64,000 bases of DNA from Candidatus Nitrosocosmicus franklandus (GCF_900696045.1 NZ_LR216287.1:1779854-1843853), one strand, 5' to 3'; positions 15,208 through 23,385 are shown, counted from the stretch's first letter. Notes: generated by a model from the sequence alone, not told the origin. Numbers and translations: made by a program.

Positions 15208-15845
15208 ATGGTATTCGATATAGGTGCTGTAACATTATATGATTTTATTTTATTCATGAATATCTCTGGAGATGGCCTTTTAAAAGCCAAGCCACTATAT
15301 CTCTTTTTGCTGTAATTAATCCGATAGGTACCATACCATTATTTGTAAGTATTACTCATAAAATGCAAGAAAAAGAACGAAATAGTATAGTAAAAACCAC
15401 CGTTATTACTGCAGGGGGTTTATTAATGATCTTTGCCATTGCAGGAACGCAAATTCTGTCCATATTTGGGATAACACTATCAAGCTTCATGATTGCTGGT
15501 GGAATACTTCTTTTTGTGGTTTCTATAGAACTGTTAACTCATGGTGGCTGGAGATTTGGGGGAACTATTTCTGATGAATCTGGTGTAGTTCCGTTAGCAT
15601 TTCCCCTACTGGCTGGTCCAGGTGCTATAACAACTGTGATATTGTCTTTCCAAACATCAGGGTTAATGGTAACATTACTTTCAATCGCGATTGTGATTGG
15701 GATTACTTGTGTGATATTCTTTCTAACCGGATCGATATATCGGATACTTGGCAGACGTGGTTCATTGATCATTACTAGGATTCTAGCGGTTCTGGTCGCA
15801 GCAATTGCTGTACAGTACGTAGTGGATGGGTTGAAAACAATGTAA
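15208..15845 (+). pseudogene. MarC-family membrane protein gene with a 5-bp duplication frameshift
   Basis: MarC proteins are small six-span membrane proteins with unsettled transport roles. The probable start ATG at 15208 reads MVFDIGAVTLYDFILFM up to about 15285. AAGCC then occurs twice in tandem (15284-15288 and 15289-15293) and shifts the frame, giving a stop within 40 bp. Removing one copy fuses this to the downstream frame LFAVINPIGTIPLFVSITHKMQEKER, the hallmark MarC N-terminal motif, and then to the open stretch 15363-15845 with further membrane helices and FPLLAGPGAITTVI. An internal start at 15363 would drop the first helix and the NPIGTIP motif. It is probably inactivated by the duplication unless reads are wrong. 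Confidence 0.75.
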
Positions 15846-16292: not shown

Positions 16293-19091
16293 TCATCCCT
16301 CTGCTGATAGTGGGTTCTGTTGCTTCTCGGTTAATAGACTCTTCCAATGATCTGGAAGGTTTTGCACCCAGCCATTGTAAACATTGGGTATCGCCAACAC
16401 ACCTTGTCCCCCTGTTCCTTCCAACCCTGATATTTTGTCATCCGTTTTGGTATCGTTTGATGCCACAAGTAAAACCTTTCCTGCAATCATTGCATCTGTA
16501 GGATTACCATCATTGTTTGGATCGCCGTCTACTACTATGGCCTCATTTGAAAATGTACTGGAAACATATGCGTAGTATCCACCTCCCTTCTTTGCACCGA
16601 AATTAACTCCATGACATCCAGGATCGCATGGTAATTCTTTTACTATTTGGTCAGTTTCAGTATCCAGTATTGTGATTGTACCGCCGGTATTTGCTGTTAC
16701 CATGTACTGGCCATCTGGACTGACCGGAGTTTGTATTGGAAGGAAACCAGTAGGTCCTGTTGTATTACCTGTTATTGGATCATAATTTGCAAGCAAATCA
16801 ATCTGTTTTATTAGACTTGCATTGGTAGTATTTATGACACTCAAAGTGCTATCAAAAAAGTCAGCAACGTATGACTTACTGCCATCTGGTATCATTCCAA
16901 CTGCTACTGGAGATACTCCGGTTTTTACTTTTCCAATTATTTTATCTTGCATCATGTCATATATGGTTGTGGTCCCAGTAAGTGCGTCTGGAGTTACCAT
17001 GTATCTGTCATCCGAACTCATCCAGTGACCATGAGGATGGGTTGAAGGTGAGGCTGGAGGTTGTAGCAAGATAAAATCCGTAAGGTTGAATTCTGGATTT
17101 GGCGAAACTACAGTAACTCCGTCTTCTCCGTTTAACGCGATATATAGTTCGTCTGTTTTAGTTCCGGTCATTACATGAGATGGATCATCTCCTACCTGTA
17201 CATCCTTTACGAGTTTTCCTGTTGTGCGATCAAAGATGGTTGTTCTGTTATCAAACCACTGAGTTTGGTAAATGAGGTCTTGATTCTTGTCTGTCCACAT
17301 GTTATGAGGATTATTCATGTTGATCTCGGGGAGTGAAACCTTCTTACTTACCTTCCATGTGGTGCCGTTAATTGCAGTAGCGGTTCCTGGTTTTGTCTTG
17401 CCAGCGGTTTTCTCAAATTGTGTATCAATCCATATTTCTCCAACTGCGGGAATCGATGGGTTTGATAGTGGAGTCAGCGTAATATTTTGACCGAAAGTAT
17501 CCTCTAACACGTCCTTGACATTGACAACAGTTCCATTCGTAACTCTCGCATCTACGTTTGGATAGGAAACATACCATGGTTGGGAGACATTTGTATAATC
17601 CTGCCAGTTTGATGGAGAAGTTGCAACAAAAAATGTCCTTAATAACTTTAGGGCTAACTCACTATTTGTAGGAATAGTAGCTCCATTTACTAAAGTGAGT
17701 TCTTCACCCAAGTCCAATCCCTCTGTATCTGGATCGTCAACAATAACTGCGGCAAGCATGAAGGGGTGAAGACTACATGCGAATACGTATAATCCCGGTT
17801 CGACTAATTTGACTATTGCTCCTCCCTTATAGGCCATCATTTGACTAAATGGCATATTGCTGGCGTTCTTGGGATGAATGATGCTTGATACGGTATGCAC
17901 GCCATTTGTGCTATCCATCATAAAGTAAACCGTACCAGATTTATTGATCACCGCCAAAGATTCGCTACCTGTGTTTGATATGTCTCCTTTAAGGTTTGCA
18001 AACCACTTACCCGGTTCATCGCTAATTGAGAAGGATGCAAAATTCTTGTAAGGTGATGCTCCCGGTATGCTTTTTTGCTCACCTGACCTGTTTTCGGAAG
18101 AGATATTCTCTTGTGATGCTTTTGCAGGAAGTACTTTAAATGTAGACATCATGCCTGCTTCCATGTGCGAAAAGACATGACAATGGAATTGCCAGTCGCC
18201 AGGACCCACTCCGTCTCCTGCATCTACGACAAATACGTGACTGGTACCTGGATGTATCTCTTTTACATCAATAATATTACTAGTACCTGGATCAACCCAT
18301 CTGTGGGCATGCAAATGGAATGTATGAGAGTGACCATTGGGGTTTGACGATGGACCAATGCCAACTACGTGGAAACGGATCTTTTGATCTTCTTCTGCTA
18401 CTGGTACCGGGTTTGTCCATAATGGAGTTTGGGTACCATTGCTACCAATTTCTAATCCCCAAAACGCAGACCCTACCATAAACAATAGAACTTCTTTATC
18501 CAGTTCGTTAAGAGAAATTGAAGTAATTTTTCCATTTACTAAGGCTTCAATCATCTTGTCTTGCGGATTTACTATCACTACACCATAAAGTCCTCTGTCC
18601 CCTAACTCATCGTCCTGATATACAAAAGTTCCAGGATTAGATGCGACAAAGTTTTCTCTGGTGGTATTTCCGTCTAGATGATTGATGATCACATGAGCGC
18701 TATCACCCTCATTTATCACAATGGCCGGTCCTGGGATAGTGGCAAGTGGGCTATAGCTACTTGTAACATTTAATCTTGTACCATTGCCACCATCAATCAG
18801 ATGCTGAACCATCTTATATGCTGGTTCGCCATCGGGTAACAGTTCTTCTTTGAGAACTATATTATGAGTATTTAGATTATTTTTGGTTATGTTGCTTCCA
18901 TCACTATTAGTGATATTTGATGATAAAGTATCGAAAACCTTGTCATCATTTTTATTTGTTTGACCTACTGATGTAAGTGGTTCTATGCCCTTAACTACCC
19001 CAGAGGGTATTAGGATAGGGGCAAGCAGCAGTATAGCCATTGTTGTCGAGAGAAAGAATTTGGTGGTTAGCAGATTTTTCCTTGTATTCAT
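16293..19091 (-). CDS. Secreted multicopper oxidase-plastocyanin-beta-propeller fusion (split MCO subunit B)
   Basis: 932 aa from the ATG at 19091, chosen because a strong AGGAGGA ribosome site (19103-19109) lies just upstream and a signal peptide follows (LLTTKFFLSTTMAILLLAPILIPSG). An upstream ATG at 19139 would place 16 extra residues before it. Domains in order: cupredoxin 1 (about 110-175) without copper ligands (HLDGNTT and YQDDELGDRG replace HxHG and HxH). Cupredoxin 2 (about 180-325) has the complete HxxHxH (H256, H259, H261) and HCHxxxHxxxxM (H303, C304, H305, H309, M314) motifs. A plastocyanin-like domain (about 355-460) has type-1 ligands H399, C439, H442, M445. A C-terminal beta-propeller (about 570-890) has YVTN/NHL-like blades such as YMVTANTGGTITILDTETDQ. 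The gene upstream carries the two motifs missing here. Substrate is unknown. Confidence 0.85.
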   Translation of the reverse strand: MNTRKNLLTTKFFLSTTMAILLLAPILIPSGVVKGIEPLTSVGQTNKNDDKVFDTLSSNITNSDGSNITKNNLNTHNIVLKEELLPDGEPAYKMVQHLIDGGNGTRLNVTSSYSPLATIPGPAIVINEGDSAHVIINHLDGNTTRENFVASNPGTFVYQDDELGDRGLYGVVIVNPQDKMIEALVNGKITSISLNELDKEVLLFMVGSAFWGLEIGSNGTQTPLWTNPVPVAEEDQKIRFHVVGIGPSSNPNGHSHTFHLHAHRWVDPGTSNIIDVKEIHPGTSHVFVVDAGDGVGPGDWQFHCHVFSHMEAGMMSTFKVLPAKASQENISSENRSGEQKSIPGASPYKNFASFSISDEPGKWFANLKGDISNTGSESLAVINKSGTVYFMMDSTNGVHTVSSIIHPKNASNMPFSQMMAYKGGAIVKLVEPGLYVFACSLHPFMLAAVIVDDPDTEGLDLGEELTLVNGATIPTNSELALKLLRTFFVATSPSNWQDYTNVSQPWYVSYPNVDARVTNGTVVNVKDVLEDTFGQNITLTPLSNPSIPAVGEIWIDTQFEKTAGKTKPGTATAINGTTWKVSKKVSLPEINMNNPHNMWTDKNQDLIYQTQWFDNRTTIFDRTTGKLVKDVQVGDDPSHVMTGTKTDELYIALNGEDGVTVVSPNPEFNLTDFILLQPPASPSTHPHGHWMSSDDRYMVTPDALTGTTTIYDMMQDKIIGKVKTGVSPVAVGMIPDGSKSYVADFFDSTLSVINTTNASLIKQIDLLANYDPITGNTTGPTGFLPIQTPVSPDGQYMVTANTGGTITILDTETDQIVKELPCDPGCHGVNFGAKKGGGYYAYVSSTFSNEAIVVDGDPNNDGNPTDAMIAGKVLLVASNDTKTDDKISGLEGTGGQGVLAIPNVYNGWVQNLPDHWKSLLTEKQQNPLSAEG

Positions 19092-19102
19092 GTTGATCAA
19101 TC

Positions 19103-19109
19103 TTCCTCC
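19103..19109 (-). promoter_or_regulatory. Strong ribosome-binding site deciding the start of MCO subunit B
   Basis: On the minus strand AGGAGGA lies 11-12 nt before the ATG at 19089-19091, close to the stop codon of the upstream gene (19111-19113). It favours the signal-peptide start over the in-frame ATG at 19139 and implies coupled translation of the two oxidase genes. Confidence 0.75.
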
Positions 19110-19110
19110 T

Positions 19111-20166
19111 TTAGATTTTTGCTTGTTCACGGTTATCACCTACTGTGCTATTTAGGCTGATAACTGAAAAATTCCCCTTCATGCCCCCAAGTAAGTTTAT
19201 CTCTGAATTGTCATAGTATGTACCATTTCTATCTGCCTTAATAGTAAAAACGTGATTTGCAAGCGGTCCAATCACATGCGAATTGATAACCTTATTGGTT
19301 CCAGGCTTTAACCATTTAATACCGTCAATGGTAAAATTATGAAAGTCGTTACCTATAGATTGGATATTGAATCGAACAATGCTGTCTTTGTTGGTAGTTA
19401 AAGTTGGATTCACACCGAGATTTGAGTGCTTTCCGCCCTTGGTGTAATCAATTTCAGAACCCCAAATTACATCATCATTGACGAACAAGATAAAGTCTTT
19501 GTCAATGTCACTTGTGCTCACATTTTTGGGAATACCGTCTACTAATGCAGGTATTCTGTCACTTGACGGATTTATTATGATACTTGAAAAAAGACCTACA
19601 GTCTCAAGTCCATCCATACTTTTTCCTAAAGCATTTCTTCCTATGGTGTGATCATGAAATGGCCATGAACCAGCAGTACCATTCGCAGCGTCCCATTCAT
19701 AAGTATATGGATTCGTAGGTGAGGCAGCCTGATCAGAAACCTTATTCAGATCTTTTAATGTTCCATCACTGGTTATTTTGTAATGGGCACCATGGGTATG
19801 GACGCTAGGATATCCCCACCCCATCTCATTTACGAGAGTAATTTTTACTTTATCTCCCTCATTAACAACAATAGTTGGTCCAGGGATGGTGGGTTTGTCC
19901 TCATATTTTGATGTTATGTCAACGGTGTTATTATTTATTAGATCTCTGATTAAATAATTATTCATCTTGTATGCAATTCGATCTGAGCTTAGTTCAGCCA
20001 CCCCAATTTCAATCTCATGTGACTTGGGATGATCTTCTTGCTTTACCTTTGAATTAGATTGAGCGAGCACACTTACAATACTACTTGGTAAGAAACTTGA
20101 AATTATCAAACCAACAGTAAATGCTGTAAGTATGTGCTCAAATTTAGGTAACTTGTACATTTTCAT
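19111..20166 (-). CDS. Secreted two-cupredoxin protein (split MCO subunit A)
   Basis: 351 aa with a signal peptide (about residues 10-36, ending VSVLAQ). Cupredoxin 1 (about 85-200) has the first two multicopper oxidase motifs: VHTHGAHY (H123, H125, H128) and PFHDHTIG (H171, H173). Asp replaces the type-1 Cys of a nitrite-reductase-like site, as in the first domain of laccases. Cupredoxin 2 (about 210-340) keeps only one His (GNDFHNFTI, H276) and ends GGMKGNFSV without HCH, so it cannot hold a type-1 or trinuclear copper alone. It is first gene of an operon with subunit B, 19 nt apart from that gene's ATG. By motif content the two proteins should build one trinuclear site together. Confidence 0.82.
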   Translation of the reverse strand: MKMYKLPKFEHILTAFTVGLIISSFLPSSIVSVLAQSNSKVKQEDHPKSHEIEIGVAELSSDRIAYKMNNYLIRDLINNNTVDITSKYEDKPTIPGPTIVVNEGDKVKITLVNEMGWGYPSVHTHGAHYKITSDGTLKDLNKVSDQAASPTNPYTYEWDAANGTAGSWPFHDHTIGRNALGKSMDGLETVGLFSSIIINPSSDRIPALVDGIPKNVSTSDIDKDFILFVNDDVIWGSEIDYTKGGKHSNLGVNPTLTTNKDSIVRFNIQSIGNDFHNFTIDGIKWLKPGTNKVINSHVIGPLANHVFTIKADRNGTYYDNSEINLLGGMKGNFSVISLNSTVGDNREQAKI

Positions 20167-21468
<1,302 letters not shown>

Positions 21469-21516: not shown

Positions 21517-21813
21517 ATGATGATTATAGTATTAGGAAAATTTCCAGCAGTATATCAGGGTAAGGAAGAGGAATTTGAAAAATGGTTTAACTGGTCAAAT
21601 CAACTCCTAAAAGGAACACCCGGATTAATTTCAAGAAGACTTGTAAAAGACAGAACCGGAAATTACTTTGCAATAGTCGAATTTGATTCCTTTGATGCCT
21701 TTAAGGCTATGCATTCTAGTGACGTACACAAATTGATTCATAAAAAAGCTTCTCTGTTATTGAACGGTATGCCTAAACCAGAAATCTTTGAGGTGATAAA
21801 CACAATATCATGA
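21517..21813 (+). CDS. ABM-domain (antibiotic biosynthesis monooxygenase-like) protein
   Basis: 98 aa forming one dimeric ferredoxin-like ABM fold: beta strand (MIIVLGKFPAVY), helix (KEEEFEKWFNWSNQLLKGTPGLISRRLVKD), strand (YFAIVEFDS), helix (FDAFKAMHSSDVHKLIHKKASLLL). Members include quinol monooxygenases, heme-degrading proteins and many uncharacterised stress proteins; no cofactor-specific residues can be assigned here. It probably shares a transcript with the ferredoxin gene upstream (48 bp gap). A second intact ABM gene lies at 57839 and a broken one at 44725. Confidence 0.78.
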   Translation: MMIIVLGKFPAVYQGKEEEFEKWFNWSNQLLKGTPGLISRRLVKDRTGNYFAIVEFDSFDAFKAMHSSDVHKLIHKKASLLLNGMPKPEIFEVINTIS

Positions 21814-21953: not shown

Positions 21954-22547
21954 TTATTTCATCCATTCTTGTTCTTCTAAATAGTCTATTAGTTTAAGCA
22001 TTTCCTGAATCCTTATTTCTCCACCTACCTGGTTTTTGCATACTTCATAGTGTTCTAGCAGCCGCTTATCCTCATCTAAGGATAGAGATTTGCTAGCTTC
22101 TATCAAATTAAAGAATTTATCCTCTTTCCCTGTGTGGTCGTCTATAAAAACAGCATATGATTTTAGGAACCTCGCTACTGGCTCTTTTAGTTTGGATTCA
22201 TCAGTGTTTGGTAACGTTTTGTTTCGATTTTTAATACGACTTTCCTTTAAAACCTTTATTTCTCTTCTTAGCATATTCGCTATCCTCCTTCCTAACTCAT
22301 GTTCAATCAAAAACTTGCGAATATCTTCTGCAAAATCATCTTTTCCCTTTGTTTCGGGGAAGTAGGCTTTTTCTTCCTTTCCGTGATGAAAGTTATCTAC
22401 AAACTCTTCTATGATTACAGAAATAATTTCAATATGCTCTAAGGGAACTTCTCTATTTGAATACAAATTATCTGAACATTTTTGTGCAATATTTCTTACT
22501 CTTCTTATTGTAATATGATCGTTTTTTAGATTTGTAGTAGAACTCAA
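21954..22547 (-). CDS. Hemerythrin-like HHE-domain protein
   Basis: 197 aa, all-helical, with His/Glu pairs in the positions of a hemerythrin di-iron site: KNDHITIRR near the start, FVDNFHHGKEEKAYFP (about residues 50-65, the HxxxE motif), FLIEHELGRR (about 87-97), and FIDDHTGKEDKFF (about 132-144, again HxxxE). Family members bind O2 or NO, or sense oxygen and iron, in the cytoplasm. The gene stands alone and is convergent with the ABM gene. Confidence 0.85.
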   Translation of the reverse strand: MSSTTNLKNDHITIRRVRNIAQKCSDNLYSNREVPLEHIEIISVIIEEFVDNFHHGKEEKAYFPETKGKDDFAEDIRKFLIEHELGRRIANMLRREIKVLKESRIKNRNKTLPNTDESKLKEPVARFLKSYAVFIDDHTGKEDKFFNLIEASKSLSLDEDKRLLEHYEVCKNQVGGEIRIQEMLKLIDYLEEQEWMK

Positions 22548-22806: not shown

Positions 22807-23385
22807 ATGAGCATGAATGATAAAATAAAGATACTAGGATTCGCTGGAAGCCTAAGGAAAGAATCCTTCAATAAAGCACTTTTGCACAATGCCGTTAGTC
22901 TTGTCCCGGATAATTCAACCCTAGAAATTTTTGAACTTGCTGGCATTCCTCCATTCAATCAAGACACAGAGAAAAACATGCCCGATAAGGTGCGAGAATT
23001 CAAATCCAAAATACGTAATGCAGATGCAATTTTGATTAGTACTCCGGAATACAATTATTCCATACCCGGTGTGTTAAAAAATGCTATTGATTCTGCTTCA
23101 AGACCATATGGGGACAATCCTTTTGACGGTAAACCGGTCGCAATAATGAGTGCCTCTGTAGGGATGTTGGGAGGATCGAGGGCACAGTATCACCTGCGTC
23201 AAATCTTTGTCTTTCTGAATATGTATCCAATTAATAGACCCGAAGTTATGGTCAACTTTGCAGCAGATAAATTTGACTCCAATGGGAATCTAATGGATGA
23301 AAATTCGAAAAAACTGATAGGTATGTTAATTAGTAATCTTGTAGATTGGGCCATACTGCTGAAAAATAAAAAAGTCCAATCTTGA
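22807..23385 (+). CDS. NADPH-dependent FMN reductase (azoreductase/quinone reductase type)
   Basis: 192 aa, flavodoxin-like fold. The FMN phosphate loop GSLRKESFNKALL (about residues 14-26) and the isoalloxazine motif PEYNYSIPGVLKNAIDSASRP (about residues 78-98) match the YieF/ChrR/azoreductase group of NAD(P)H:FMN or quinone reductases. It probably reduces quinones, azo compounds or metals by two electrons, limiting redox cycling in the cytoplasm. The gene stands alone with an AT-rich promoter. The MhqO/MhqD-like pair at 47-49 kb could belong to the same quinone defence. Confidence 0.88.
   Translation: MSMNDKIKILGFAGSLRKESFNKALLHNAVSLVPDNSTLEIFELAGIPPFNQDTEKNMPDKVREFKSKIRNADAILISTPEYNYSIPGVLKNAIDSASRPYGDNPFDGKPVAIMSASVGMLGGSRAQYHLRQIFVFLNMYPINRPEVMVNFAADKFDSNGNLMDENSKKLIGMLISNLVDWAILLKNKKVQS

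Follow-up and report, generated by a model that had tools for sequence, protein, structure and literature searches.

Two adjacent genes with complementary copper motifs in ammonia oxidizers, probable chains of a heteromeric two-domain multicopper oxidase

Results

Gene organization and motif content

The window (the whole stretch of 64,000 nucleotides that was analysed) comes from the genome of an ammonia-oxidizing archaeon, 2.84 Mb in a single contig. Two genes, arranged on the minus strand in the order A then B and both with intact reading frames, encode proteins with multicopper-oxidase domains (Table 1). A preliminary description of the locus had placed them 19 nt apart, and this spacing is correct: the TAA of A ends at position 19111 and the ATG of B starts at 19091, with a Shine-Dalgarno-like AGGAGG inside the 19-nt spacer.

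Table 1. Features of the A-B locus and its surroundings (positions in the window; T1, T2 and T3, copper types 1 to 3; fractions refer to the motif census)
Feature	Position	Strand	Remarks
MarC-family membrane protein	15363-15845		Neighbour
Subunit B	16293..19091	-	932 aa: degenerate cupredoxin domain 1, active domain 2, plastocyanin-like domain, beta-propeller
B beta-propeller, C-terminal	16341..17444	-	About aa 550-917; conserved H596, H639, H687, H689, H827
B plastocyanin-like domain	17727..18044	-	About aa 350-455; conserved type-1 ligands H399, C439, H442, M445
B motif 4, HCHVFSHMEAGM	18150..18185	-	aa 303-314; predicted T3 His and T1 Cys/His/Met; 55/55 B
B motif 3, HTFHLH	18309..18326	-	aa 256-261; predicted T1, T2 and T3 ligands; 55/55 B
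B domain 1	18558..18743	-	About aa 117-178; motif-1 loop wholly absent in alignment; motif 2 reads QDD
AGGAGG, Shine-Dalgarno-like	19105..19110	-	Between A and B
Subunit A	19111..20166	-	351 aa; two multicopper-oxidase domains, the first active and the second devoid of copper motifs; signal-like helix at the N terminus
A degenerate motif 4, YDNSEINLLGGM	19180..19215	-	aa 318-329; no Cys
A degenerate motif 3, HNFTID	19324..19341	-	aa 276-281; T2/T3 His 0/55 A
A motif 2, HDH	19648..19656	-	aa 171-173; predicted T3 ligands; both His 55/55 A
A motif 1, HTHG	19789..19800	-	aa 123-126; predicted T2 and T3 copper ligands; H102/H104 equivalents 55/55 A, 0/55 B
Ferredoxin-like neighbour (4Fe-4S)	20911..21468	+	Matches NFRAN_2032
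ABM-domain neighbour	21517..21813	+	Matches NFRAN_2033
Hemerythrin-domain protein	21954-22547		Neighbour
NADPH-dependent FMN reductase	22807-23385		Neighbour

A carries motifs 1 and 2 of a multicopper oxidase (HTHG and HDH) and has HNFTID and YDNSEINLLGGM at the positions of motifs 3 and 4, with no HCH in its second domain; B keeps motifs 3 and 4 (HTFHLH and HCHVFSHMEAGM). Both observations agree with the preliminary description. Its further statement that B has lost motifs 1 and 2 holds as well, motif 1 being absent and motif 2 reading QDD, but the HLDG that it had offered as the altered motif 1 is not a clear mutated counterpart of HTHG and lies at the edge of a shortened motif-1 stretch. 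When aligned with single-chain relatives and with the sequence of a solved two-domain laccase, each chain lacked the motif pair of the other. In Pfam searches, Cu-oxidase_3 (N-terminal oxidase domain) was the sole oxidase domain above cut-off in A, and Cu-oxidase_2 (C-terminal) alone among oxidase domains exceeded the cut-off in B. Neither chain has the full set of four motifs that would be expected in each chain of a type-B two-domain oxidase: A has 1 and 2 only, B has 3 and 4 only. Type-1 ligands occur, among the oxidase domains, in domain 2 of B alone; A lacks the Cys, and no type-1 set was seen in domain 1 of A or of B.

The His-rich propeller of B may have a metal site of its own. Compared with NCBIfam model NF052460 (lactonase-type, clade III nitrous oxide reductase), the C-terminal half of B scored 41.5 bits, below the cut-off of 700. 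The propeller also contains a CxxxCH stretch and gives a weak match to the hydrazine synthase beta model.

Conservation of the copper ligands

Ligand positions were scored in a census of 55 A proteins, 55 B proteins and 21 single-chain relatives from many archaeal and bacterial genomes, using the numbering of S. coelicolor SLAC, with the roles of the eight His and of Tyr108 taken from PMC3918160. All 21 single-chain relatives have all eight His. In A, each of the four cluster His of domain 1 is present in 55/55 proteins and each of the four of domain 2 in 0/55. B has the four domain 2 cluster His and the Cys, His, His and Met of the type-1 site in 55/55; of its domain 1 cluster His, three positions are empty throughout (0/55), the position of H156 is still His in 13/55, and no B protein has two or more. 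The second sphere is divided as well. The equivalent of Tyr108 is found in 54/55 A and 0/55 B, and the residue that we take to be Asp259 in 55/55 B and 4/55 A.

Mean identity within groups was.62 for domain 1 vs.52 for domain 2 in A, and.64 for domain 2 vs.47 for domain 1 in B; in the single chains the values were.61 (domain 1) and.58 (domain 2). In both chains the active domain is more strongly conserved than the degenerate one. The degenerate domains provide an internal control, as the half-site that is not needed has gone, and this argues that the retained half-sites are under selection.

These ligand patterns bear on an alternative in which B would transfer electrons through type-1 copper and have no trinuclear site, A would serve as a structural partner or deliver copper, and no O2 would be reduced. 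B indeed has type-1 ligand sets in domain 2 and in the plastocyanin-like domain, and a complete trinuclear set is present in neither chain. However, this alternative leaves unexplained the four domain 2 cluster His of B that do not serve type-1 copper and the four domain 1 His of A, all of them invariant, when their counterparts in the degenerate domains are almost all lost (apart from the H156 position of some B proteins). In the absence of a shared site the retained His should have drifted likewise, which counts against the electron-transfer role and makes it improbable.

Predicted folds

Both domains of the single-chain model of A (pLDDT 86) superimposed on the small laccase Ssl1, with Z 25.7 and an rmsd of 2.0 for 238 residues. 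In the single-chain model of B (pLDDT 86.5), Foldseek matched the first part to small laccases (E 5e-17 over about 306 alignment columns), and the C-terminal part resembled two propellers, one of the YVTN type (Z 38) and that of N2O reductase (Z about 30). A and B are thus both predicted to contain two cupredoxin domains with the small-laccase fold. In these models the degenerate domains appear to be still folded, as expected if they still build the oligomer. Two-domain small laccases were also the nearest solved structures in PDB sequence searches with the oxidase parts. No solved structure of the A-B pair was found in searches with A, B and N. europaea A, which returned, for the oxidase part, two-domain laccases and other multicopper proteins only.

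Co-occurrence of the two genes

Of 70 Nitrososphaeraceae genomes, 13 had A, and the identical 13 had the oxidase part of B. In the family of N. europaea (125 genomes), A was present in 72 and B in the identical 72 plus one further genome, G488; the genomes in these sets are not independent of phylogeny, and motifs were read individually in the census proteins rather than across all 72 genomes. In G488 (L247; Nitrosomonadaceae), A is undetectable and B consists of shifted fragments, a decayed remnant. The co-occurrence in related genomes that the preliminary description had proposed as a check was therefore found: no genome of the two families has A without B, and the lone B is shredded. The gap between A and B is mostly < 50 nt, and some pairs overlap. 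Distances among A proteins mirror those among B proteins with r =.91 over 52 pairs (0/2000 permutations), a figure that in part reflects shared species history.

G488 represents a natural loss of the A-B pair. One extra B without an adjacent A was noted (G081:C14; L073 5567-8713), in a genome with two complete A-B pairs, and one A fragment (L218), again in a genome that also has a complete pair. Odd relatives were seen at L076/L077 (G142) and L082 (G110); they comprise a B-like protein without domain 1 and with Ile at the position of the axial Met, a complete copy with a frameshift, and a domain 1 of the A type that runs straight into a propeller, apparently by deletion.

A second alternative holds that A and B form separate homotrimers with unrelated tasks, their half-sites binding copper in other ways (for example as a NirK-like type-2 copper in A). 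Both chains keep the two-domain laccase fold, which is able to trimerize in known members. Nevertheless, unrelated tasks leave the exact complementarity of the retained motifs unexplained, domain 2 of A lacks the partner His in 55/55 proteins, and the perfect co-occurrence, the adjacency and the decay of B where A is gone all argue against independent enzymes. We regard separate homotrimers as slightly less probable still than the electron-transfer role of B.

The split could also be an artefact of assembly or reading frame, or reflect ordinary paralogues in decay, and a few related loci are in fact frameshifted or truncated (L077, L078, L082). The pattern is, however, fixed across archaeal and bacterial genera and in closed as well as draft genomes, with strongly conserved retained half-sites. 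The preliminary description had named an assembly error, visible in full-length homologues, as a finding that would overturn its reading; instead, full-length homologues in many genomes show the split. This recurrence rules out error or decay, to which we assign practically no weight.

Distribution and origin of the split

When 400 genomes of the class were searched by a tblastn-type method, the adjacent A-B pair was found in other Nitrososphaeraceae. In Nitrosopumilaceae all four motifs stand in a single chain, which is either a free protein of 350 aa or a long form of 1044-1195 aa in which one single oxidase is fused to a plastocyanin domain and a propeller. Species genomes were then scanned with aligned A proteins as the query. 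Many ammonia-oxidizing bacteria proved to have the pair, among them Nitrosospira, Nitrosovibrio and Nitrosomonas (N. europaea, L208, being one), as did one Chromatiales MAG and one Pseudomonadales MAG. In the methanotrophs Methylomicrobium, Methylocaldum, Methyloglobulus and Methylothermaceae the two-domain oxidase is unsplit, and plastocyanin and propeller are encoded together by a separate gene that follows it. Among the loci read, no natural A-B fusion gene was seen.

The arrangement of an unsplit oxidase with a separate plastocyanin-propeller gene was read at loci L174-L180, L184 and L216, from methanotrophs and related gammaproteobacterial MAGs. At five archaeal loci (L095, L096, L097, L098, L083) the plastocyanin-propeller part is a separate protein of ~630-655 aa without an oxidase part, and no adjacent A/B pair was seen in these genomes.

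In a tree of 129 rows, A formed one clade (SH-aLRT 99) and B another (100), each containing both archaeal and bacterial members and with the single-chain forms outside. In an archaeal-only tree A and B were again each one clade (100/99 and 97/99). On the simplest reading, a single split would have preceded the spread of the pair between bacteria and archaea. As to where the duplication falls relative to the single-chain lineages, A and B were recovered as sisters with support of 58/22, and the alternatives (p-AU 0.41 and 0.23) were not rejected.

Discussion

We consider it probable, at roughly 0.86, that A and B depend on each other as the two chains of a heteromeric type-B two-domain multicopper oxidase, with one trinuclear site between domain 1 of A and domain 2 of B. 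The preliminary description had suggested obligate partners that build a single site, and the comparative evidence, namely co-occurrence and homologues with the same split, supports this suggestion. In type-B two-domain oxidases the type-1 copper lies in domain 2, and the trinuclear site is shared between domain 1 of one monomer and domain 2 of its neighbour (PMC13151041). Known two-domain laccases are built in this way, and a site at the A-B interface would fit the architecture. SLAC loses much of its activity when any one of the eight His is mutated (PMC3918160).

A closed ring of three two-domain chains cannot alternate between A and B, and a standard trimer would therefore be A2B or AB2 with one working site. 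The 'trimer of AB' that the preliminary description had given as an example for modelling needs this correction. An open A-B dimer is a possible alternative assembly.

The gene for a complete two-domain oxidase would have been duplicated, followed by complementary loss, A retaining the domain 1 half of the trinuclear site and B the domain 2 half together with the type-1 copper. A single trinuclear copper site would then form where domain 1 of A meets domain 2 of B. The type-1 copper of B would receive electrons from the substrate, possibly by way of the plastocyanin domain in the same chain, and pass them through the His-Cys-His bridge to the trinuclear site, where O2 would be reduced to water outside the cytoplasmic membrane.

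A and B are almost certainly NFRAN_2029 and NFRAN_2030, published as members of the MCO3 lineage of ammonia-oxidizing archaea (AOA), since the ferredoxin-like and ABM-domain neighbours match the NFRAN_2029-2033 cluster and genus and gene order are the same. According to the article on Ca. N. franklandianus, NFRAN_2029 and NFRAN_2030 are 'two copies' of MCO3 and among the most induced genes in biofilm, for which its authors suggest a role in cell-surface modification (PMC12448741). The complementary split is not mentioned in its main text (PMC12448741). The A/B split would mean that these two highly induced AOA genes are not simply copies of one enzyme, as they had been read, and it defines a testable enzyme in the model nitrifiers N. 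europaea and Ca. N. franklandianus. It would also be a clean case of duplication and complementary degeneration turning a homo-oligomer into an obligate hetero-oligomer, with unsplit relatives surviving for comparison.

Some steps of archaeal ammonia oxidation are not yet settled, and copper oxidases count as candidates for them. A more speculative proposal, against which we judge the odds to lie, is that the pair forms a nitrifier-specific multi-centre copper complex, comprising the split-site oxidase, an on-board plastocyanin relay and a His-rich propeller possibly with its own metal site. This complex would have passed as a whole between bacterial and archaeal ammonia oxidizers and would act on an intermediate or by-product of ammonia oxidation.

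We know of no multicopper oxidase with a trinuclear site shared by two gene products, and none was present in the literature searched. Likewise, no paper was found that deals with trinuclear sites in heteromers or with the pair of N. europaea; this absence is weak evidence, as most subscription papers lay outside the search. Ceruloplasmin and hephaestin, with six domains, have at most one trinuclear site in a body of six cupredoxins, the other interfaces being without ligands (PMC3600357). An A2B or AB2 ring would resemble them, except that one polypeptide there corresponds to two genes here. The heterodimeric fungal laccases of the POXA3 type likewise have a second subunit. In contrast to A and B, however, their large subunit is described as the laccase itself, and the small subunit as a separate small protein that raises stability and activity (PMC3129051, PMC10741624), with no mention of complementary motifs. 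The small laccases SLAC, Ssl1 and CjMCO, which are type-B two-domain multicopper oxidases, share with A and B the fold, the type-1 copper in domain 2 and the expected inter-chain trinuclear site. These enzymes are homotrimers with four motifs per chain, whereas in A and B the motifs are divided over two genes and B has plastocyanin and propeller domains in addition.
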